Assembly (NCBI GenBank): GCA_001664505.1
Contig: CP011806.1
Location: 3,260,170 to 3,324,169 of the forward strand
Direction: 5' to 3'
Source of the DNA: Acidobacteria bacterium Mor1
Lineage (GTDB): Bacteria > Acidobacteriota > Polarisedimenticolia > Polarisedimenticolales > Polarisedimenticolaceae
DNA length: 64,000 nt
In this document: piece by piece, positions 1-8,930 of the stretch
Layout: every line of letters starts with the position of its first letter
Numbering within the stretch: position 1 is the stretch's first letter
The notes under the pieces: model-generated
Databases searched by the model: none
What the model was told of the DNA's origin: nothing
Seen by the model: the letters and a program-made list of their open reading frames with translations, nothing else
Program-made: the position numbers and the translations under genes

Positions 1-456
1 GCCGATCCAGAGCGAGCCGTCCGGCCCGGTAGCGATGGCCCGGACTACATCGTTGGAAAGGGAGTTGGCGTCTGCGGGGTCGTGGCGCCAGTTCTCGAAG
101 TTCTGTTCGAGGGGACGGAAACGGCTGAGCCCACCGTCGCCGCCGATCCAGAGCCGGCCGCGGGGATCTTCATGGATCGCCCAGACGAAGTCCTTGGGGA
201 GCGAGCCCGCCTCGCGGGCGTCATGGTTGAACACCTTGAACTCGAAGCCGTCGTAACGGTTGAGCCCATCCTCGGTGCCGACCCATAGGATCCCCGAACG
301 TTCCTGATGAATGCAGGTCACGGCGCTCTGAGAGAGGCCTTCGACCACCGACAGGCGTTCGAATCCGTACGAGCGCACCCCGGCGGACCATGCCAGGCCG
401 GGCATGCACAGAATCGCCCAGAGGGCGATCGCTTTCAGGATTCGCGCGGGCATCAT
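1..456 (-). CDS. Two-component regulator propeller sensor protein, N-terminal part (runs off left edge)
   Basis: The minus strand opens at an ATG pair (456/453) and stays open for 152 codons to the window edge, so the 3' end is missing. The first 25 residues are a signal peptide (hydrophobic ALWAILCMPGLAW, then SA). Three propeller blades follow, with the recurring pattern (I/L)LW(V/I)G..(D)GL.R(Y/F): SGILWVGTEDGLNRYDG, then RGRLWIGGDGGLSRF, then DGSLWIG. This is the Reg_prop family, whose periplasmic propeller normally precedes a Y_Y_Y domain, a membrane helix and a histidine-kinase or GGDEF output. The output domain lies outside the window. The gene is divergent from the first S8 peptidase across a 298-bp shared upstream region. 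A TATATT -10-like box lies at 484-489 on this strand without a convincing -35. Confidence 0.8.
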   Translation of the reverse strand, partial: MMPARILKAIALWAILCMPGLAWSAGVRSYGFERLSVVEGLSQSAVTCIHQERSGILWVGTEDGLNRYDGFEFKVFNHDAREAGSLPKDFVWAIHEDPRGRLWIGGDGGLSRFRPLEQNFENWRHDPADANSLSNDVVRAIATGPDGSLWIG

Positions 457-553: not shown

Positions 554-570
554 TGTCGGATCACGCGACA
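554..570. promoter_or_regulatory. Candidate enhancer-binding-protein site TGTCG-N7-CGACA
   Basis: Perfect 5-bp inverted arms TGTCG (554-558) and CGACA (566-570) flank a 7-bp spacer, centred about 143 bp upstream of the -24 GG of the sigma-54 promoter at 704-719. A second perfect inverted pair, GTGTCGCG (543-550) and CGCGACAC (564-571), overlaps it. The same TGTCG-N7-CGAC(A/G) arrangement occurs twice upstream of the paralogous peptidase gene. Position and symmetry fit an upstream activating sequence; the bound protein is unknown. Confidence 0.45.
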
Positions 571-703: not shown

Positions 704-719
704 TGGCACCCGGCTTGCA
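704..719 (+). promoter_or_regulatory. Sigma-54 (-24/-12) promoter of first S8 peptidase
   Basis: TGGCACC-CGGC-TTGCA matches the RpoN consensus TGGCACG-N4-TTGCW, with the invariant GG and GC at exact spacing. The predicted transcription start is about 729-730. That leaves a leader of about 25 nt containing a GGAG ribosome-binding site (744-747) before the ATG at 755. The paralogous gene downstream has an equivalent element. Confidence 0.8.
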
Positions 720-754
720 GTTACCGGGGCGACCACGAATCCCGGAGACCGGAT

Positions 755-2569
755 ATGAAAACGCAATCCAAGCTCTTACTCGTCCTGCTCGCCGCGGCGC
801 TCTCGATCGTGCCGGCGGTAGCCGCCGAGATGCGCGGCTTCCAGCGCAACCTCGACGCGACGCCCGATTCCCCGCGAGCGGGCATGAGCGACAGCCTCGT
901 CGAGATGCTCGATCGGGCGCGAGACTTCGACCGTCCGGCGCCCGGCCGTGACGCGGTGGCCCCGGCTCCCGCGGCACCCGGTGACCGGAACGCGCGAGTC
1001 GACGTCGTCGTGGTCTATCACCGCATGGACGTGATGCGCAGCGTTCAAAAGTTCACCCGCGACCGGGATCGCGGCGAGTTCCGGCACTTCCCCTTCCGGG
1101 CCACCAGCGTCACGGCTCGCGAGCTCGATGCCCTAGCCCGCAACCCCCACGTCAAGTACGTGGCCCGGGACTCGGAAATCAGCCTCGCCTCGGTCAACGC
1201 CTACAAGTCGGCCAACGCGCCGCACTCCAACGGCAACGCCAAGGAGACCGGAGCCGGCGTGACCGTTGCGGTCATCGACACCGGCCTCGAGTCGGACTCC
1301 GCCGACGTGCTGAACCGCAGCCAGTTCGGCCTGCGCACGCACTACGGCCAGGAGAACCTCTGGTCCGAAGCGGACTACGACCCCAACGGTCACGGCACTC
1401 ACGTGGCTTCGATCATCGCCAGCGACGGCTGGGGCTCGAAGGGCAAGTACCGCGGCGTTGCCCCGGACGCCAACATCATCTCCCTGCGTGTCCTCGATCA
1501 GGACGGCCGGGCGCAGATGTCCGACGTGCTGTACACCCTCGAGCGTGTGCTGCAGGCCCATCAGGCGCGCAACATCCGGGTCGTGAACCTCTCGATGGGT
1601 AAGGCCGTCGAGGACCCGGTCGATCAGGACCCCCTGGTCCAGGCGGTCGAGGCGCTGTGGGATGCCGGCATCGTCGTGGTCTGCTCGGTGGGCAACTACG
1701 GTGAAGACGGAAACTTCACGGTGACCAGCCCGGGCAACTCCCCGAAGGTGATCACCGTCGGCGCCGCCGACGACAAGGGCACCCCCAACAAGAACGACGA
1801 CACCGTCGCCGCCTACTCCTCCCAGGGCCCGACGATGTACGACCACTTCATCAAGCCGGACCTTCTGGCGCCGGGATCGCAGATCGTCTCCTCGGCGTCC
1901 CGCAACGGCAAGCTCAACAGCATGGCGCCGACGGACAAGTACTTCGAGTGCCAGAACGGCAGCACCCAGTGTGACGGCTTCGGCGAGTACCTGGTGCTCT
2001 CCGGCAGCAGCATGGCCGCGGCGATGGTCACCGGCGCGGTCGCCCTGATGCTCGAGGACGACCCGACTCTGACCCCCGACAACATCAAGGGCCGGCTGAT
2101 GCTGAGCGCCCGCAAGATCGACGGGGATCCGACCGCGGTCGGAGCCGGCATCCTCGACATCAAGGAAGCCCTGAAGGACACGAGCCTGGTGGCCAACGCC
2201 CGCTCGCCGAAGATGGCCCGCTCCGCCGAGGGCCCGGCGATCATGATCGAAAACCCCAGCCTGATCTGGGGCGCCGAGCACACCGCCAGCAAGATCTGGG
2301 GCGACGCCTACCTGTGGCAGGACGGTTACCTCTGGGCCGACGGTTACCTGTGGGCTGACGGCTACCTCTGGGCCGACGGTTATCTCTGGGCTGACGGCTA
2401 CCTGTGGGCCGACGGTTACCTCTGGGCCGACGGCTACCTGTGGGCCGACGCGGCAACCTGGTCCCAGGCGGTGACGAACCCGGATCCGACGATTCAGTCC
2501 CAGTCGGCCAGCCACCCGACGCCTGGAGACGCTCCGGCGCCGCCGGCGGAGACCGGTCCCGAGTTCTAG
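755..2569 (+). CDS. Secreted S8 (subtilisin-like) serine peptidase with C-terminal YLWADG repeats, paralogue 1
   Basis: 604 residues. A signal peptide covers about 1-24 (LLLVLLAAALSIVPAVAA). A pro-region follows (about 25-145) with an I9-like inhibitor segment ending FPFRATSVTARELDALARN and YVARDSEIS. The catalytic domain runs about 165-475: Asp175 in VAVIDTG, His213 in NGHGTHVAS, oxyanion Asn314 in SVGNYG, and Ser419 in SGSSMAAAM (the usual GTSMAAP lacks its proline here). After a linker about 500-515, one YLWQDG, six YLWADG and one YLWADA unit lie in tandem, followed by an acidic Pro-rich tail. The family hydrolyses peptide bonds outside the cell; the substrate is unknown. The gene is transcribed alone: sigma-54 promoter upstream, hairpin terminator at 2600. 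A close paralogue follows in tandem. Confidence 0.93.
   Translation: MKTQSKLLLVLLAAALSIVPAVAAEMRGFQRNLDATPDSPRAGMSDSLVEMLDRARDFDRPAPGRDAVAPAPAAPGDRNARVDVVVVYHRMDVMRSVQKFTRDRDRGEFRHFPFRATSVTARELDALARNPHVKYVARDSEISLASVNAYKSANAPHSNGNAKETGAGVTVAVIDTGLESDSADVLNRSQFGLRTHYGQENLWSEADYDPNGHGTHVASIIASDGWGSKGKYRGVAPDANIISLRVLDQDGRAQMSDVLYTLERVLQAHQARNIRVVNLSMGKAVEDPVDQDPLVQAVEALWDAGIVVVCSVGNYGEDGNFTVTSPGNSPKVITVGAADDKGTPNKNDDTVAAYSSQGPTMYDHFIKPDLLAPGSQIVSSASRNGKLNSMAPTDKYFECQNGSTQCDGFGEYLVLSGSSMAAAMVTGAVALMLEDDPTLTPDNIKGRLMLSARKIDGDPTAVGAGILDIKEALKDTSLVANARSPKMARSAEGPAIMIENPSLIWGAEHTASKIWGDAYLWQDGYLWADGYLWADGYLWADGYLWADGYLWADGYLWADGYLWADAATWSQAVTNPDPTIQSQSASHPTPGDAPAPPAETGPEF
2321..2446 (+). repeat. 18-bp coding repeats (7 units) encoding YLWADG
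   Basis: Seven consecutive 18-bp units of the form gacgg(t/c)ta(c/t)ct(c/g)tgggc(c/t) encode D-G-Y-L-W-A. Nearly all differences between units are at synonymous third positions (ggt/ggc, tac/tat, ctc/ctg, gcc/gct). The peptide is therefore held constant while the DNA drifts, which argues for selection on the protein repeat rather than recent slippage. Confidence 0.9.
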
Positions 2570-2599
2570 GCGCACACACTCAAGACCCCCCTGACTCCT

Positions 2600-2640
2600 C
2601 CGGGGTGCCGGCCGTAACGGTCGGCACCCCGGTTTGCTTT
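2600..2640 (+). terminator. Rho-independent terminator after S8 paralogue 1
   Basis: A 14-bp stem (CCGGGGTGCCGGCC at 2600-2613 against GGTCGGCACCCCGG at 2619-2632, one G-U pair) with a 5-nt loop is followed by TTTGCTTTT. It lies 31 bp after the stop codon. Confidence 0.85.
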
Positions 2641-2784
2641 TGGGCACCTCGTCGGCAGCTTCCGCTCTCGCCACCTGCCCCTTCGCACCTTCCCCAGCTC
2701 TCGCCGGAACGGCGCCGCTCTCCCTCCCGGGCCCCTGTGTTGCGCTGCGCCCCCTCGTGATGTGCGTGTCGGAGCCGCTGTACA

Positions 2785-2801
2785 TGTCGCGATCGACGAC
2801 A
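2785..2801. promoter_or_regulatory. Candidate enhancer-binding-protein site TGTCG-N7-CGACA (distal, paralogue 2)
   Basis: Perfect TGTCG (2785-2789) and CGACA (2797-2801) arms with a 7-bp spacer, about 155 bp upstream of the -24 element at 2947. Its centre is 82 bp, close to eight helical turns, from the second site at 2867-2883. Confidence 0.4.
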
Positions 2802-2866
2802 CCCCCGGCAACCCCCTCAACATCAAACACTTAGGACCCGGCGCGCCCGTTTTCGACGTGAAGGCG

Positions 2867-2883
2867 TGTCGGCATACGCGACG
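2867..2883. promoter_or_regulatory. Candidate enhancer-binding-protein site TGTCG-N7-CGACG (proximal, paralogue 2)
   Basis: TGTCG and CGACG arms with a 7-bp spacer; one arm base departs from the perfect inverted repeat. The wider sequence CGTGTCGG-N3-ACGCGAC is shared with the site upstream of paralogue 1. Its centre is about 73 bp upstream of the -24 element, a usual distance for sigma-54 activator sites. Confidence 0.4.
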
Positions 2884-2946
2884 ACGCGGCAACCGCACAC
2901 CCGCCAAGAAGCCCCGTTTCCGTAGGGTTTCTTCATTCCCTACCGC

Positions 2947-2962
2947 TGGCACACCCGTTGCA
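2947..2962 (+). promoter_or_regulatory. Sigma-54 (-24/-12) promoter of second S8 peptidase
   Basis: TGGCACA-CCCG-TTGCA fits the RpoN consensus with exact GG-to-GC spacing. It resembles the element of paralogue 1 beyond the core (GCAGTTA follows both). The predicted start is about 2972-2973, only about 10 nt before the first in-frame ATG (2983). This favours initiation at the second ATG (2995), which has GGAG at 2985-2988. A GTAGGG/CCCTAC inverted repeat lies just upstream (2922-2943). Confidence 0.8.
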
Positions 2963-2994
2963 GTTAAGGGGGCCGAACCTAGATGGAGTCCCGA

Positions 2995-4887
2995 ATGAGC
3001 CCGAACAGAAAGACCCTGATCTTCATCGCGCTGGCGGCCCTGCTGGTGTCGTCGGTTGCCGCGGACACGCCCCGCGGCTTCGAGCGCGCCCTCGATCCGG
3101 TCGAGTCCTCGCAGCACGTTCGCATGAGCGACAGCCTGCGGGAGATGCTCGACGATCTCGATCGCGGGCAATCTCCCGATCGGCCCATCGCGCCGGGCGA
3201 CCGCCCCGAGCGGCCGCGCCTGGACGATCCCGACGGTGGGATCTCGATCGCACCCCGCGACAGCGACGATCCCGATGCGCCCTCGGCCAACGAGGTCGAT
3301 GTGATCGTGGTCTACAAGAACATGCGTAGTGCGCTTCGGATGCAGAAGTTCGCCCGCGGCATCAACCGCCACGACTTCGCGCACTTCCCCTTCCGGGCCA
3401 CCCGGATGCACGTCCAGGACATCCCGGGCCTGCTCCAGGACCCGCGCGTCGAGTACGTCGCCCGGGATTCCGAGATCAGCATCGCCTCTTACAAGGCGAT
3501 GTTCTCGGCCAAGGCGCCGCACCTCAACCTCTTCAGCAACAACAAGGGGCTCACGGGCGCCGGTGTGAAAGTCGCGGTGGTGGATACGGGGCTCGATTCC
3601 CACTCCGACGACGTGCTGAATCAGATGACCTTCGGGATTCACTCTGCCCGCCTCAAACGGGAAAGCGGATACGACGCCAATGGGCACGGGACCCACGTCT
3701 CGAGCATCATCGGCAGCGACGGCTACGGCTCCGAGGGCAGGTTCCGCGGCGTGGCCGAGGCGGCGCGGGTTCGCTCCTTCCGGGTGCTCAACAGCGACGG
3801 CTCGGCCCGGGTCTCCGACGTAATCTTCGTCCTCGATCAGATCCTGCGAAAGAACCACCGCCGCAACATCAAGGTCGTGAACCTCTCGATGGGCAAGGCG
3901 GTCGAGGATCCGGTGGCCCAGGACCCGCTGGTTCAGGCGGTCGAGGCGCTGTGGGATGCCGGCATCGTGGTGGTCTGCTCGGCGGGCAACTACGGTGAGG
4001 ACGGCAACTTCACCATCACGAGCCCGGGCAACTCCCCCAAGGTGATCACCGTCGGCGCTGCCGATGACAACGGCACCTGGTGGAGGAGCGACGACCGGGT
4101 CGCCAGCTTCTCCTCCCAGGGCCCGACGATGTACGACCACATCGTCAAGCCGGACCTGCTGGCGCCGGGCACCGACATCATCGCCTCGTCGCCGGGCTAC
4201 GGCTGGCTCCGCAGCAAGGCGCAACGCCTGGCCTGTAACGCCGGCGACACCTCGGCCGCCGACTCCGACGCCGGATGCAAGGGCTTCGGTGAGTACATGG
4301 CGCTCTCCGGCACCAGCATGGCCGCGGCCATGGTCAGCGGCACCGTCGCGCTGATGCTGGAGAAAGATCCGAGCCTGACTCCGGACAACGTCAAGGGCCG
4401 CCTGATGCTGAGCGCCCGGCGGATCCAGGGTGACCTGACCGCGGTCGGCGCGGGTGTCCTCGACATCGAGGGCGCCCTGGAAGAGACCCGCCTGGTGCAG
4501 AACGCCCGCTCGCCGAAGCTGGCCCGCTCCGCCGAAGGCCCGGTCATCCTGGTCGAGGACCCGCGCCTGATCTGGGGTGACGGCTACTCGGCTTCCGAGC
4601 TGTGGGGCGACGGTTACCTGTGGGCTGACGGCTACCTGTGGGCTGACGGCTACTTGTGGGCCGACGGCTACCTCTGGGCTGACGGCTACCTGTGGGCCGA
4701 CGGCTACCTCTGGGCCGATGGTTACCTGTGGGCTGACGGCTACCTGTGGATGGACAACGCCATGTGGCAGGACGCGGTCGAGAATCTCGACCCGATCTAC
4801 GGCCAGATGCAGTCTCAGTCCAACGACGGCGGCGGCGCGGCCGCCGATCTACCGGCCGACCCGGTGGACGAAGGCGAGGAGTACTAG
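2995..4887 (+). CDS. Secreted S8 (subtilisin-like) serine peptidase with C-terminal YLWADG repeats, paralogue 2
   Basis: 630 residues from ATG 2995; a frame-compatible ATG lies at 2983, but the ribosome-binding site and promoter spacing favour 2995. A signal peptide (TLIFIALAALLVSSVAA) is followed by a pro-region sharing RGFxRxLD and MSDSLxEMLD blocks with paralogue 1. The catalytic triad, numbered from 2983, is Asp201 (VVDTG), His235 (NGHGTH) and Ser445 (SGTSMAAAM), with oxyanion Asn336. The C-terminus carries seven YLWADG units plus YLWMDN, then a Gly/Ala/Asp-rich tail. Pro-region, catalytic core and repeat tail all align with paralogue 1, indicating tandem duplication. It has its own sigma-54 promoter and a strong terminator. 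No transmembrane anchor is visible after the signal peptide. Confidence 0.92.
   Translation: MSPNRKTLIFIALAALLVSSVAADTPRGFERALDPVESSQHVRMSDSLREMLDDLDRGQSPDRPIAPGDRPERPRLDDPDGGISIAPRDSDDPDAPSANEVDVIVVYKNMRSALRMQKFARGINRHDFAHFPFRATRMHVQDIPGLLQDPRVEYVARDSEISIASYKAMFSAKAPHLNLFSNNKGLTGAGVKVAVVDTGLDSHSDDVLNQMTFGIHSARLKRESGYDANGHGTHVSSIIGSDGYGSEGRFRGVAEAARVRSFRVLNSDGSARVSDVIFVLDQILRKNHRRNIKVVNLSMGKAVEDPVAQDPLVQAVEALWDAGIVVVCSAGNYGEDGNFTITSPGNSPKVITVGAADDNGTWWRSDDRVASFSSQGPTMYDHIVKPDLLAPGTDIIASSPGYGWLRSKAQRLACNAGDTSAADSDAGCKGFGEYMALSGTSMAAAMVSGTVALMLEKDPSLTPDNVKGRLMLSARRIQGDLTAVGAGVLDIEGALEETRLVQNARSPKLARSAEGPVILVEDPRLIWGDGYSASELWGDGYLWADGYLWADGYLWADGYLWADGYLWADGYLWADGYLWADGYLWMDNAMWQDAVENLDPIYGQMQSQSNDGGGAAADLPADPVDEGEEY
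4609..4752 (+). repeat. 18-bp coding repeats (8 units) encoding YLWADG
   Basis: Eight 18-bp units; seven give D-G-Y-L-W-A and the last gives D-G-Y-L-W-M. As in paralogue 1, differences are almost all synonymous (gac/gat, ggc/ggt, ctg/ctc/ttg, gct/gcc). The copy number differs from paralogue 1, so the arrays have evolved separately or by partial conversion. Confidence 0.9.
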
Positions 4888-4930: not shown

Positions 4931-4975
4931 ACGGGGTGGAGCCGCGGGCAACCGGCTCCACCCCGTTTTTTTTTT
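4931..4975 (+). terminator. Strong rho-independent terminator after S8 paralogue 2
   Basis: A perfect 14-bp stem (4931-4944 with 4953-4966) and an 8-nt loop run into an uninterrupted T tract of about ten bases. It is 43 bp beyond the stop codon. Confidence 0.95.
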
Positions 4976-5050: not shown

Positions 5051-6256
5051 TCAGTCGAAGAGGCGGGAGAACCCGACGCCCAGGGACCAGCTGTCCCGGT
5101 TGCCGGTAGCGAACTCCTGGGAGCGGGCGCCGACCCGGGCGCGGACGATCCAGGCGCGGCCGAGGGTCTGCTGCCAGGCCAGGCCGACTCGCCATTCATC
5201 GGAGCGCTCGAGTTCGGGGGTCACGAGATCGGCGTCGGGAGTCGAGCCGGCGCCGATGGACGCGGTCCAGTGAGACTCCACATCCTTGCCGAACAGGCGG
5301 GCCGAGAGGGTCGCCGAGGTCTCGTCGCCGGAATCACGATCGGCGTAGAACGGCCGCAGCCAGATGAACCAGTTCCCCCGGTACATCCCGATCGTTCCGG
5401 TGTAGAGCGTCACGGTGTCGACCCGGAAATCCAGGTGCCGCACGCCGACCGACGCCTCGAAGTCCCGGGAGAACGGGAAGAAGTACTCGGCACCGTAGCG
5501 CTGCTCGGGGAACAGGGTCGAGTCGGAGTAGCCGGCGTTGAAGTAGAAGTATCCCGGGCCGGCCCGGTGATAGACATCGACCTCGTACTGCTCGGCATTG
5601 GTCGAGAACCGGTCGGCCAGGGTCACGCGGCCGGTGATGAAGCCACCCCGGTAGCGCCCCTGTAGTTGAAGCACCAGGTCGTACCAGTCGTCGATGTCGT
5701 CGAAGCTCTCGAAGAGGATGTCGGCGGAGAACTTATAACGCGGGTAGCGCAGGAACAGCCGCTGCTGGAGGTCCTGGGCCTGCTCCCAGTCGGGCCGTTC
5801 GATCAACACCAGCCGGATGTCTTCCAGCGCCTCCCGGCCGTAGCCCAGGTCTTCCAGTGCCAGCGCCCGGCGGAACAGCAGCTCGGGATATCGCGGGTGA
5901 CGCTTGAGCGCCTTGTCCGCCTGCAGCACCGCCTCGAACCAGGCGTGGGCCTGGAGCTCGACATCGACGCGCCCCATCAGTGCATCGAGACGGTACGGGT
6001 CGTCCTTCAGCACCCGCTCGAACTGAGTGCGGGCATCGGCGAGCTGGCGATCCCAGAGGTGAAGCCGCGCCAGGTAGAGCCGCACGTCGACGTAGCCGGG
6101 GGCCTCGGCCAGGATCTCCTTGCAGATCTTGCGCGCCTCGCCGTGACGGCCGGCGCGGCCGGCCTCCCGGGCCTCCTCGAACATCACGTCCACGTCGGCG
6201 ACTGCCGCACCGAAGGCGGCCATCAGACAGATCCAACTGAGGAGTAGCCGTTTCAT
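5051..6256 (-). CDS. YaiO-family TPR / outer-membrane beta-barrel protein
   Basis: 401 residues with a signal peptide (about 1-20). A TPR-like alpha-helical region (about 22-180) follows, with repeated A-x-G/A-R...A...L...P units such as GRHGEARKICKEILAEAPG and ADARTQFERVLKDDPYRL. The C-terminal half (about 185-401) alternates short amphipathic strands rich in Tyr/Phe/Trp (for example GPGYFYFNAGYSDSTLF) and ends in FSRLFD with an aromatic near the terminus, as outer-membrane barrels do. The layout matches YaiO proteins and resembles PgaA, where TPRs sit before an export barrel. Its ATG overlaps the stop of the glycosyltransferase gene by 4 nt (ATGA), so the two are translationally coupled. 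A role as outer-membrane exit port for the polymer is inferred from context. Confidence 0.82.
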   Translation of the reverse strand: MKRLLLSWICLMAAFGAAVADVDVMFEEAREAGRAGRHGEARKICKEILAEAPGYVDVRLYLARLHLWDRQLADARTQFERVLKDDPYRLDALMGRVDVELQAHAWFEAVLQADKALKRHPRYPELLFRRALALEDLGYGREALEDIRLVLIERPDWEQAQDLQQRLFLRYPRYKFSADILFESFDDIDDWYDLVLQLQGRYRGGFITGRVTLADRFSTNAEQYEVDVYHRAGPGYFYFNAGYSDSTLFPEQRYGAEYFFPFSRDFEASVGVRHLDFRVDTVTLYTGTIGMYRGNWFIWLRPFYADRDSGDETSATLSARLFGKDVESHWTASIGAGSTPDADLVTPELERSDEWRVGLAWQQTLGRAWIVRARVGARSQEFATGNRDSWSLGVGFSRLFD

Positions 6257-7704
6257 GGCGTCGGCTCCGCGGCTTCGGCGCTGCCGTCGGACTGCTTGAA
6301 GCCCGAACGCTGCATTTCGCCCCAACCGCCCCGGGCCCAGAGGATATCGAAGAAGGCCTTGACCTTGAACAGGGCCAGCAGCTGCCGGTAGCCGAAGTTC
6401 TCGAGGATGCTGAATACCACCAGCTTCGTCAGGTCGAGCCAACTCGGATAGCGGCGGAAGGACAGTTCCTCGAGCAGCACGGCGGCGATCGAGAGGAAGG
6501 TGCCGTACAGCACCGACACCGCCAGGAACAGCAGGAAGAACTCGGTATTGAGGAGCCCCAGCAGATACGAGACCACCACCGAGATGTAGCCCAGCACCTC
6601 GATGATCGGGCCCAAAAGCTCGAAGATCACGAAGTAGGGGAAGCTGAAGAGCCCCAATACCCGGTAGCGCGGGTTGAACATCAACCCCCGGTTGTGCCAC
6701 AGCGCGTGGACCATGCCCCGGTGCCAGCGGCTTCGCTGGCGCATCAGGTCGCGCAACCGCTCCGGGGCCTCGGTCCAGCAAACCGGATCGGGCACGAACA
6801 CGACCCGGTACTTGCGCTTGTTCTGGCGCATGTGGCGATGCAGGCGCACCACCAGGTCCAGATCCTCGGTGACCGTCTCCCGGGAGTAGCCCCCGATCTC
6901 GATCACCTCCTGCTTGCGGTAGATGCCGAAGGCGCCGGAGATGATCAGAAGCGCGCGCAGCACACTCCAGCCCACACGTCCGGTAAGGAAGGCCCGCAGA
7001 TATTCGACCACCTGCAGGATCGGCAGCATCTTGTCGGGCAGCTCGATGTGCACCACCCGGCCGTCCTGCACCCGGCAACCGTTGGCGATACGCACGATGC
7101 CGCCGGCGGCGACCGTTTCCTGGGGCGCCTCCATGAACGGCTTGACCACCCGCAGGAGGGCGTTGTCCTCGATCACCGAGTCGGCGTCGAAGGAACAGAA
7201 CAGCGGGTAGCGGCTGAGGTTGATGCCGGCGTTGAGGGCGTCGGACTTGCCTCCGCGCTCCTTGTCGACCACCACCAGCATCGGGTTCTGGAGCGAGCCG
7301 TAGATCCCCCGCACGTCCTCGGTCTCGAGGACGCGGCGATAGACCTTGTCGGTCTTCCGCAGATCGAAGGCCTCCGTCAGCTTCTCGAGGGTCTCATCGT
7401 CGGACCCGTCGTTGACCACGATGATCTCGAACTCGCCGTAGTTGATCATCATCAACGAGCGCACCGTCTCGACGATGGTGCGTTCCTCGTTGTAGGCGGG
7501 TACGACGATCGAGACCGGCCAGGTCATCTCCGACTGCATGATTTGCCGGTAGTCGGAGAAGAACGTGCGCTTGACGAAGCGCAATACTTCGCCCATCGAG
7601 ACGAAGAACAGCAGCAGGTAGATCGAGTTCAGCGCCGTGAAGTAGAACACGACGAACAGGTTGAACAGGTTGATGCCCTGCGCGGCGTAGCCGACCCAGC
7701 TCAT
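6253..7704 (-). CDS. Processive family-2 glycosyltransferase (PgaC/cellulose-synthase-like), membrane-embedded
   Basis: 483 residues. An N-terminal membrane helix (about 10-38) is followed by a cytoplasmic GT-A domain with all signature residues of processive beta-glycosyltransferases: Asp99 (VNDG), the DAD motif Asp173/Asp175, the acceptor-site TED (Asp281) and QxxRW at Gln323-Arg326-Trp327. Hydrophobic segments between about 345 and 445 would form the translocation channel. Such enzymes build and secrete a beta-linked polysaccharide from a nucleotide sugar; the sugar cannot be read from sequence. It starts inside the stop of the HEAT gene (ATGA) and ends inside the YaiO start. No separate deacetylase or PilZ domain is present in the operon. 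Confidence 0.88.
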   Translation of the reverse strand: MSWVGYAAQGINLFNLFVVFYFTALNSIYLLLFFVSMGEVLRFVKRTFFSDYRQIMQSEMTWPVSIVVPAYNEERTIVETVRSLMMINYGEFEIIVVNDGSDDETLEKLTEAFDLRKTDKVYRRVLETEDVRGIYGSLQNPMLVVVDKERGGKSDALNAGINLSRYPLFCSFDADSVIEDNALLRVVKPFMEAPQETVAAGGIVRIANGCRVQDGRVVHIELPDKMLPILQVVEYLRAFLTGRVGWSVLRALLIISGAFGIYRKQEVIEIGGYSRETVTEDLDLVVRLHRHMRQNKRKYRVVFVPDPVCWTEAPERLRDLMRQRSRWHRGMVHALWHNRGLMFNPRYRVLGLFSFPYFVIFELLGPIIEVLGYISVVVSYLLGLLNTEFFLLFLAVSVLYGTFLSIAAVLLEELSFRRYPSWLDLTKLVVFSILENFGYRQLLALFKVKAFFDILWARGGWGEMQRSGFKQSDGSAEAAEPTP

Positions 7705-8930
7705 GAGGAAACCTCCGAACCGGGAGTATCCAGGATCCCCGCGAGAATCTGGCGCACCCGGCTGTCGGGGTGCCGCTCCAACAACTCGGCCAGCCGGTCG
7801 GCGGGGCCGGCGTGAGCCATCCGCCGCAACATCTCTTCGGCCGCAGCCGCTTCGGGGCCGGCGTGGGCCAGGCGGTCGACCTGTTCGTCGACGATGCCGA
7901 CCTGTTGCAGCATCAGCACCGCCTGATGCCGTGCGTAGCGATCTTCGTCGTCGAGCATGCGGTCCAGGGCGGTCACTCCCTTGCGCCCCATCGAGCGCAG
8001 TGCTTCGGCCGCATTGCTGCGGGTCCACCAGGCGGCATCGCGCAGGGACTCGCAAAGGGCCGGGATCGCCGTGTCGTAGCGCATCCGCCCCAGAGCCTTG
8101 GCCGCCATGGCGCGAACCGGCCACTCGGGATCTTGCAGCAGATCGGCTACCCGGTCGCCTGAGTTGGGATCGCCGATGGCGCCGAGGGCATGGCAGGCCC
8201 GGGCGCGGATGTCCGCGTCCTCATCGGCGAGCCGATCGTACAGCCAGGGCTGGGCGCGCAGCGGGCGGATCCTGCCGATCACGTCCAGGGCCGCGAGGCG
8301 TCCGCGGCGGGTCAGGTCCGGCCACAGGTCGATCAACTGATCGACCACCTGCCGGCCCATCGAGGTCAGGATGTCCGCGATCCGGATCGTCGACCAACGG
8401 CTGGGCTCGTTGAGCGCGAGGATCAGGGGGCGCAGCGAGGCCTCACCTCCGAGCTGCGCCAACGACTGGGCCGCGCGAATGCGCACCTCCGAGGATTCGT
8501 CTTCGAGAGCTCGAACCAACGAGTCGACGGAACGCCGCGACATGGCCAGGCCGAGTTGCTCCGCGGCGCGGGCGCGGACCCACCAACTGCGGGAGCCCAG
8601 TCGTTCGAGGTAGTCGTCGACGTAGCCCATCTCGTCGAGGGAGGCGGAGATGCGCTCCAGTTCCTCGCCGCGCACACGTTGAGCCAGGTCGAGCAACACC
8701 GATTCGATCACCGCGCCGTCGTCGGCAGCGGTCTCGCCGGAGAGTGCCTGAGAGAGCGAGCCTTCGCCGTGATGAACCCAGCGCAGGATCTGGGGCTCGA
8801 GGACGGTGCGCCGGGAACGAAATCGCCGTTGGCGGGTTTCACGCCACGCCTTGTTCACCACGATCACGCCGGTCAGGAGCAGGAAGACCGCCCCGATGAC
8901 GACGATGACGACGGTGAGCACATGAAGCAT
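7701..8930 (-). CDS. Membrane-anchored HEAT-repeat protein in polysaccharide operon
   Basis: 409 residues. One N-terminal transmembrane helix (about 3-27) precedes a soluble region with at least six HEAT-like repeats (about 110-345), each with the pattern D...VR.(R)AA..LG.(M)...A...L...L.D, for example EWPVRAMAAKALGRM and WTRSNAAEALRSMG. HEAT arrays usually act as protein-binding scaffolds. It lies between the response regulator (28-nt gap) and the glycosyltransferase (ATGA overlap), suggesting that it couples regulation to the synthase at the inner membrane. No enzymatic motif is visible. Confidence 0.8.
   Translation of the reverse strand: MLHVLTVVIVVIGAVFLLLTGVIVVNKAWRETRQRRFRSRRTVLEPQILRWVHHGEGSLSQALSGETAADDGAVIESVLLDLAQRVRGEELERISASLDEMGYVDDYLERLGSRSWWVRARAAEQLGLAMSRRSVDSLVRALEDESSEVRIRAAQSLAQLGGEASLRPLILALNEPSRWSTIRIADILTSMGRQVVDQLIDLWPDLTRRGRLAALDVIGRIRPLRAQPWLYDRLADEDADIRARACHALGAIGDPNSGDRVADLLQDPEWPVRAMAAKALGRMRYDTAIPALCESLRDAAWWTRSNAAEALRSMGRKGVTALDRMLDDEDRYARHQAVLMLQQVGIVDEQVDRLAHAGPEAAAAEEMLRRMAHAGPADRLAELLERHPDSRVRQILAGILDTPGSEVSS

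Follow-up and report, generated by a model that had tools for sequence, protein, structure and literature searches.

Regulons of the NtrC family combine sigma-54 promoters of the -24/-12 type and upstream dyads with an activator of REC-AAA+-Fis architecture, which carries a GAFTGA loop and is encoded beside kinase genes. In the PrsK/PrsR-RpoN system a response-regulator activator and sigma-54 serve a group of exported proteins with a common C-terminal feature; the link between PEP-CTERM proteins, PrsR and sigma-54 is the subject of PMC1569441. The locus described here, from a stretch of 64,000 nucleotides of Acidobacteria bacterium Mor1 (the window), resembles both systems, and its regulatory logic is of an already known kind. 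Unlike NtrC-family regulons, however, it has paralogous tailed S8 peptidases as targets, and the receiver of its own activator is degenerate; unlike the tail of PEP-CTERM proteins, the tail here is an array of W-x-D hexapeptides. The activator reaches the cut-off of none of the named equivalog models listed, and its membership in PrsR was rejected (335.1 bits versus the cut-off of 502.6 for TIGR02915, PEP_resp_reg). As to the peptidases, their closest solved relatives by both sequence and fold are archaeal Tk-SP, the best match, and other prosubtilisins (3afg, 9ues). A propeptide-like region and a subtilase domain are common to all of them; identity in the fold alignments is about 29-33%, and the match does not extend to the LWxDG tail. 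In literature searches with thin coverage of subscription journals we found no published description of the regulon or of the tailed family, and no occurrence of the string LWADG.

We consider it highly probable, judging by sequence evidence, that the twin peptidase genes of the window are part of a dispersed sigma-54 regulon for secreted S8 peptidases with LWxDG tails, run as an NtrC-type circuit by the candidate activator of Table 1. The activator would be an enhancer-binding protein of two-component type (degenerate receiver, AAA+ domain with GAFTGA, Fis-type HTH) encoded elsewhere, its gene being followed by genes for a MASE9 hybrid kinase and a receiver-kinase. We infer that it would bind TGTCG-N7-CGACA sites, often in tandem, about 60-160 bp upstream and, once bound, contact and remodel sigma-54 RNA polymerase at the -24/-12 element; every peptidase would be transcribed as a single-gene unit, then exported and matured. 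With a link to a sigma factor, to a defined operator and to a single activator plus its kinases, a family so far uncharacterised would become a regulon that can be tested; the link would also give a genomic handle on the timing of protease secretion in little-studied bacteria.

Both twins match Peptidase_S8 (PF00082; 163.1 and 159.5 bits), and the triad D175/H213/S419 of peptidase 1 is invariant across the nine paralogues found in the genome. The model for type VII secretion mycosins, TIGR03921, scored 164.2 and 153.9 bits on the twins, under its curated cut-off of 278.75 bits. The start of gene 2 is more likely ATG 2995 than ATG 2983, since GGAG is found at 2985-2988 and transcription is expected to start near 2972. 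Strong terminators follow both genes, as had been proposed in the initial annotation, and thus each gene is a separate unit.

Table 1. Coordinates of the twin peptidase genes, their control elements, the candidate activator and promoters of further paralogues
Feature	Sequence	Position	Strand	Remark
-24/-12 element, gene 1	TGGCACCCGGCTTGCA	704..719	+	exact pattern match
-24/-12 element, gene 2	TGGCACACCCGTTGCA	2947..2962	+	exact pattern match
Perfect dyad TGTCG-N7-CGACA, gene 1	TGTCGGATCACGCGACA	554..570	+	putative activator site
Perfect dyad, gene 2	TGTCGCGATCGACGACA	2785..2801	+	putative distal site
Dyad, gene 2	TGTCGGCATACGCGACG	2867..2883	+	putative proximal site
S8 peptidase 1		755..2569	+	604 aa; signal-peptide-like N-terminus
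S8 peptidase 2		2995..4887	+	about 630 aa; longest ORF from ATG 2983
W-x-D hexapeptide tail, peptidase 1		2291..2452	+	mostly YLWADG
W-x-D hexapeptide tail, peptidase 2		4597..4776	+	mostly YLWADG; ten hexads
Intrinsic terminator, gene 1		2600..2632	+	15-bp stem
Intrinsic terminator, gene 2		4931..4966	+	14-bp stem, nine T
Candidate activator, own genome		C1:1086148-1087572
-24/-12 element	TGGCCCGAGGCTTGCA	gene at C1:4584979	minus
-24/-12 element	TGGCCTAGGTGTTGCA	gene at C1:2822210
-24/-12 element	CGGCACAGCCCTTGCT	gene at C1:5611555
Weakened -24/-12 element	TGGCACGCAACTTGAC	gene at C1:3935040
Weakened -24/-12 element	TGGCATGACTCTTGGA	gene at C1:2059386

The initial annotation had placed exact TGGCAC-N5-TTGCA promoters, with TGTCG-N7-CGAC(A/G) sites upstream, before both genes. 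We observed all these elements (Table 1); edge to edge, the dyads lie 63-145 bp from the -24 box, and the dyad of gene 1 is part of a cluster of half-sites at about 543-570. On both strands of the 5,985,000-base genome TGGCAC-N5-TTGCA has two exact matches, the two that precede the twins, while the reversed control pattern has one. The matches fit the sigma-54 consensus, which has GG at -24 and GC at -12 a fixed distance apart. The perfect dyad TGTCG-N7-CGACA occurs 19 times genome-wide versus four times for its reversed pattern. This excess alone carries little weight because some genomes from other families show the same (two are equally rich in raw counts), and the dyad evidence is the positions of the sites rather than their raw number. 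A composite pattern of dyad, gap and loose -24/-12 element, run on 16 genomes, was dropped, as chance matches dominate in GC-rich DNA.

With peptidase 1 as a query we found nine S8 genes with LWxDG-type tails in the genome. TGTCG dyads precede seven of them and are absent before the other two; among the seven, five have clear -24/-12 elements and two have weakened ones, and the -12 box is altered in two members (TTGAC, TTGGA). Eight of the 19 perfect dyads are situated within 400 bp upstream of six tailed S8 genes (6 of 17 if the two of the window are excluded), the seventh dyad-bearing paralogue having a CGACG variant. About six of the remaining 11 perfect dyads are inside likely genes and five are intergenic; none of the 11 has a -24/-12 element (≤2 mismatches) within 230 bp downstream. 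When the 250 bp upstream of each of the nine genes were compared with shuffled sequences, -24/-12 elements (≤2 mismatches) were seen in five of the nine versus a mean of 0.10, and half-sites numbered 33 versus 5.7. The search for further pairs of dyad and promoter in the genome, suggested along with the initial annotation, thus led again to genes of LWxDG-tailed S8 peptidases. The reading that the twins are under shared control was supported; that they alone make up the regulon was not, as such sites are carried by seven S8 paralogues, by the activator gene and, in relatives, by the kinase genes.

The twins are 63% identical and arranged in tandem, so one could suppose that their common upstream motifs are functionless leftovers of a recent gene duplication. 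We regard this as extremely improbable: the motifs also precede paralogues just 38-47% identical to gene 1, in which the spacing between dyad and promoter differs and the other upstream DNA shows little similarity, and they are found before the unrelated activator and kinase genes as well.

A different dyad, GTCTCAC-N1-GTGAGAC, occurs twice, about 90 bp apart, at C1:1337640-1337900 (L054:1640-1900) before the gene at C1:1337904, a tailed S8 paralogue with about 32 LWSDG-type repeats and the -24/-12 element CGGCCCCGGCCTTGCT. This suggests a second sigma-54 activator for the tailed S8 family.

High-scoring relatives of the peptidases, often as several paralogues, are present in most of the genomes of this acidobacterial class that were searched (41 of 60, i.e. 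59 relatives and the own genome, with an alignment of the nine paralogues as a query). Conservation of the upstream elements among orthologues had been proposed as a check, and we saw -24/-12 elements retained in other genera: with ≤2 mismatches they precede 13 of 29 tailed genes of the relatives, against 0.31 (maximum 2) in shuffles. The clearest case is genome G003, from another genus of the same family, with an exact TGGCACCTCCATTGCA and two perfect dyads 80 bp apart. In named public genomes peptidase 1 alone as a query gave no matches, whereas the alignment search did; of the 17 tailed S8 genes considered there, mostly from outside the class, one had a -24/-12 element, versus 0.28 by chance. 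As there was no enrichment in this set, the sigma-54 wiring is a feature of the lineage and not general to the tailed family.

These counts bear on the possibility that the dyads bind an ordinary regulator, e.g. a repressor, that the -24/-12 matches are accidental and that another sigma factor transcribes the genes. The TGTCG-N7-CGACA palindrome could indeed be bound by regulators of other classes and is frequent in certain genomes from other families. Still, we hold this explanation to be very unlikely, given that the enrichment of -24/-12 elements in paralogues and relatives goes far beyond shuffles, that a search upstream of both twin genes revealed no sigma-70-like promoter and that the regulators neighbouring S8 genes in relatives are sigma-54 activators.

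The initial annotation had made its sigma-54 reading of the twins depend on the presence of rpoN and of enhancer-binding proteins. The genome has rpoN (PF04552, E-value 1.5e-62, C1:789031-789510) and about 25 strong genes for enhancer-binding proteins. Together with the dyad pairs, their conservation and an identifiable activator, these findings support control of the twins by sigma-54 and one activator. A scan for activator motifs in the flanks of S8 genes in relatives revealed one recurrent enhancer-binding protein, adjoining a tailed S8 gene in G003, G004, G005, G007 and G015; in three of these five relatives kinase genes adjoin the pair. The gene order is activator, S8, receiver-kinase and membrane hybrid kinase in G003 and G004 (with an extra receiver-kinase preceding the membrane hybrid kinase in G003), and activator, S8, hybrid kinase and receiver-kinase in G005. 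The locus in the genome under study (C1:1082749-1087572) contains the activator, the hybrid kinase and the receiver-kinase without an S8 gene, and for this reason the assignment of the activator depends on the relatives. Pfam domains of the activator are Sigma54_activat (PF00158, 214.5 bits), a Fis-type HTH (PF02954, 55.4 bits) and a weak receiver; the GAFTGA loop is invariant in six orthologues. The hybrid kinase has MASE9, HisKA, HATPase and receiver domains.

It is very likely that the regulon shares a single identifiable activator, the orthologue listed in Table 1. In a tree built from the own activators recovered by motif (several were missed) and activators near tailed S8 genes, the candidate forms a clade of 100/100 support with the proteins of G003, G004, G005 and G007; of the own activators included, it is the only one to fall in this S8-adjacent clade. 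The alternative, that sigma-54 and the shared dyad are used by another of the own enhancer-binding proteins, has in its favor the choice of about 25 genes and the fact that in some relatives activators of other types are also encoded close to tailed S8 genes. We consider it unlikely: even with several own activators missing from the tree, the candidate is the sole own member of the S8-adjacent clade; in a profile search of the whole genome it scored 805 bits versus 437 for the next own protein, a lead of 368 bits; its gene has a half-site cluster of its own; and the dyads track its presence across relatives. Half-sites before tailed S8 genes numbered 32 versus 14.5 in shuffles (maximum 25) in relatives with the activator orthologue, and 11 versus 8.5, i.e. 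not enriched, in those without it. In G001, from the genus of G005, the orthologue is absent and so are half-sites before both tailed S8 genes; in G002, a genome 81% complete, a perfect dyad precedes a tailed gene, yet the orthologue was not found.

We also saw a second tier of activator relatives at 620-650 bits (L252-L257, in G026, G012, G028, G022, G014 and G036). The recognition helix in this tier is changed (NRSSLYSK for HRSTLYAK), and in several genomes a membrane kinase gene adjoins the activator gene. This tier was set aside, as the flanks that were read contained no tailed S8 gene and the region upstream of the activator gene showed no clear cluster of half-sites. In several relatives, sigma-54 activators of further, unrelated types are encoded near tailed S8-like genes (L085, L086, L090, L096, L111, L187 and L198).

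Returning to the regulon headed by the candidate activator, we found sites of the same kind at regulatory genes. The activator locus of G003 holds five of the 25 perfect dyads of its genome: one before S8, two before the second receiver-kinase gene and two before the hybrid kinase gene, these two kinase genes being preceded by the -24/-12 elements CGGCACGGACCTTGCG and CGGCCCGCGGATTGCA. In G004 two dyads and the -24/-12 element GGGCGCGCGACTTGCA precede the hybrid kinase gene, while the activator gene of G005 has a half-site cluster upstream of TGGCTTCCTGATTGCA. Before nine activator and kinase genes there were 30 half-sites versus 7.3 in shuffles. As the activator gene and, in relatives, the kinase genes carry such sites, the circuit is probably self-regulating. 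Three half-sites of the own activator gene are located between GGGAACCGTTCTTGCA and the start codon, a placement that may indicate autorepression.

The acidic pair, the Asp and the Lys of receiver domains have established functional roles. Judged by alignment, the own activator has other residues in place of the acidic pair and the Lys (ILIASPVEE, LLEP) and retains the phospho-acceptor Asp. By the same alignment G007 has likewise lost the acidic pair and the Lys; in G005 the Asp is lost too, and in G003 and G004 all these residues are retained. With the acidic pair and the Lys missing, classical phosphorylation is doubtful here; either control in this lineage may have become independent of phosphorylation, or the input may enter elsewhere. 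Some NtrC-family members have no working receiver; thus, the degenerate receiver is a matter of signal input and not of membership in the family. One could speculate, as a very improbable option, that the peptidases release their LWxDG tails and that the MASE9/receiver-kinase pair encoded beside the activator senses them. If true, the sigma-54 circuit would receive its signal from the very tailed protease that it produces.

A propeller gene in divergent orientation, with its start about 250 bp away from the gene 1 promoter, had been named in the initial annotation as a candidate part of the signal path with its output domain out of sight. Its ORF (window 1-456) exceeds the window; the completed gene, L018:12336-15626, encodes Reg_prop repeats, Y_Y_Y and GGDEF (Pfam), so the protein is a predicted diguanylate cyclase. 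In spite of its location we find it highly improbable that this protein is the sensor switching on the twins: its output is GGDEF, neither kinase nor activator, the neighbours at the activator loci of relatives are histidine kinases, and we saw no evidence that ties the propeller to the regulon. It may act indirectly through cyclic di-GMP.

In the tail of each twin nine tryptophan spacings are exactly six residues, and the hexapeptide can be written as (Y/A/I)-L-W-(A/S/G)-D-(G/A/S). It is present in the class, and varied forms occur in further groups, among them Gammaproteobacteria and Chloroflexi. The full-length AlphaFold model suggests three-residue strands every six residues of the tail, but with pLDDT about 40, and the tail modelled alone has no strands (pLDDT 42); since confidence is low, we make no claim on its fold. 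A role in surface attachment or oligomerisation is only a guess. Some tailed S8-like proteins (L123, L132, L198, L202, L203) close with a short, conserved-looking motif, NVWVxQE/NxWVxQE, after the repeats. Adjoining the twins, on the minus strand at window 5051-8930, are genes which by eye encode a TPR-type outer-membrane-like protein, a membrane glycosyltransferase and a HEAT-repeat-like protein, and which resemble a polysaccharide export cluster.
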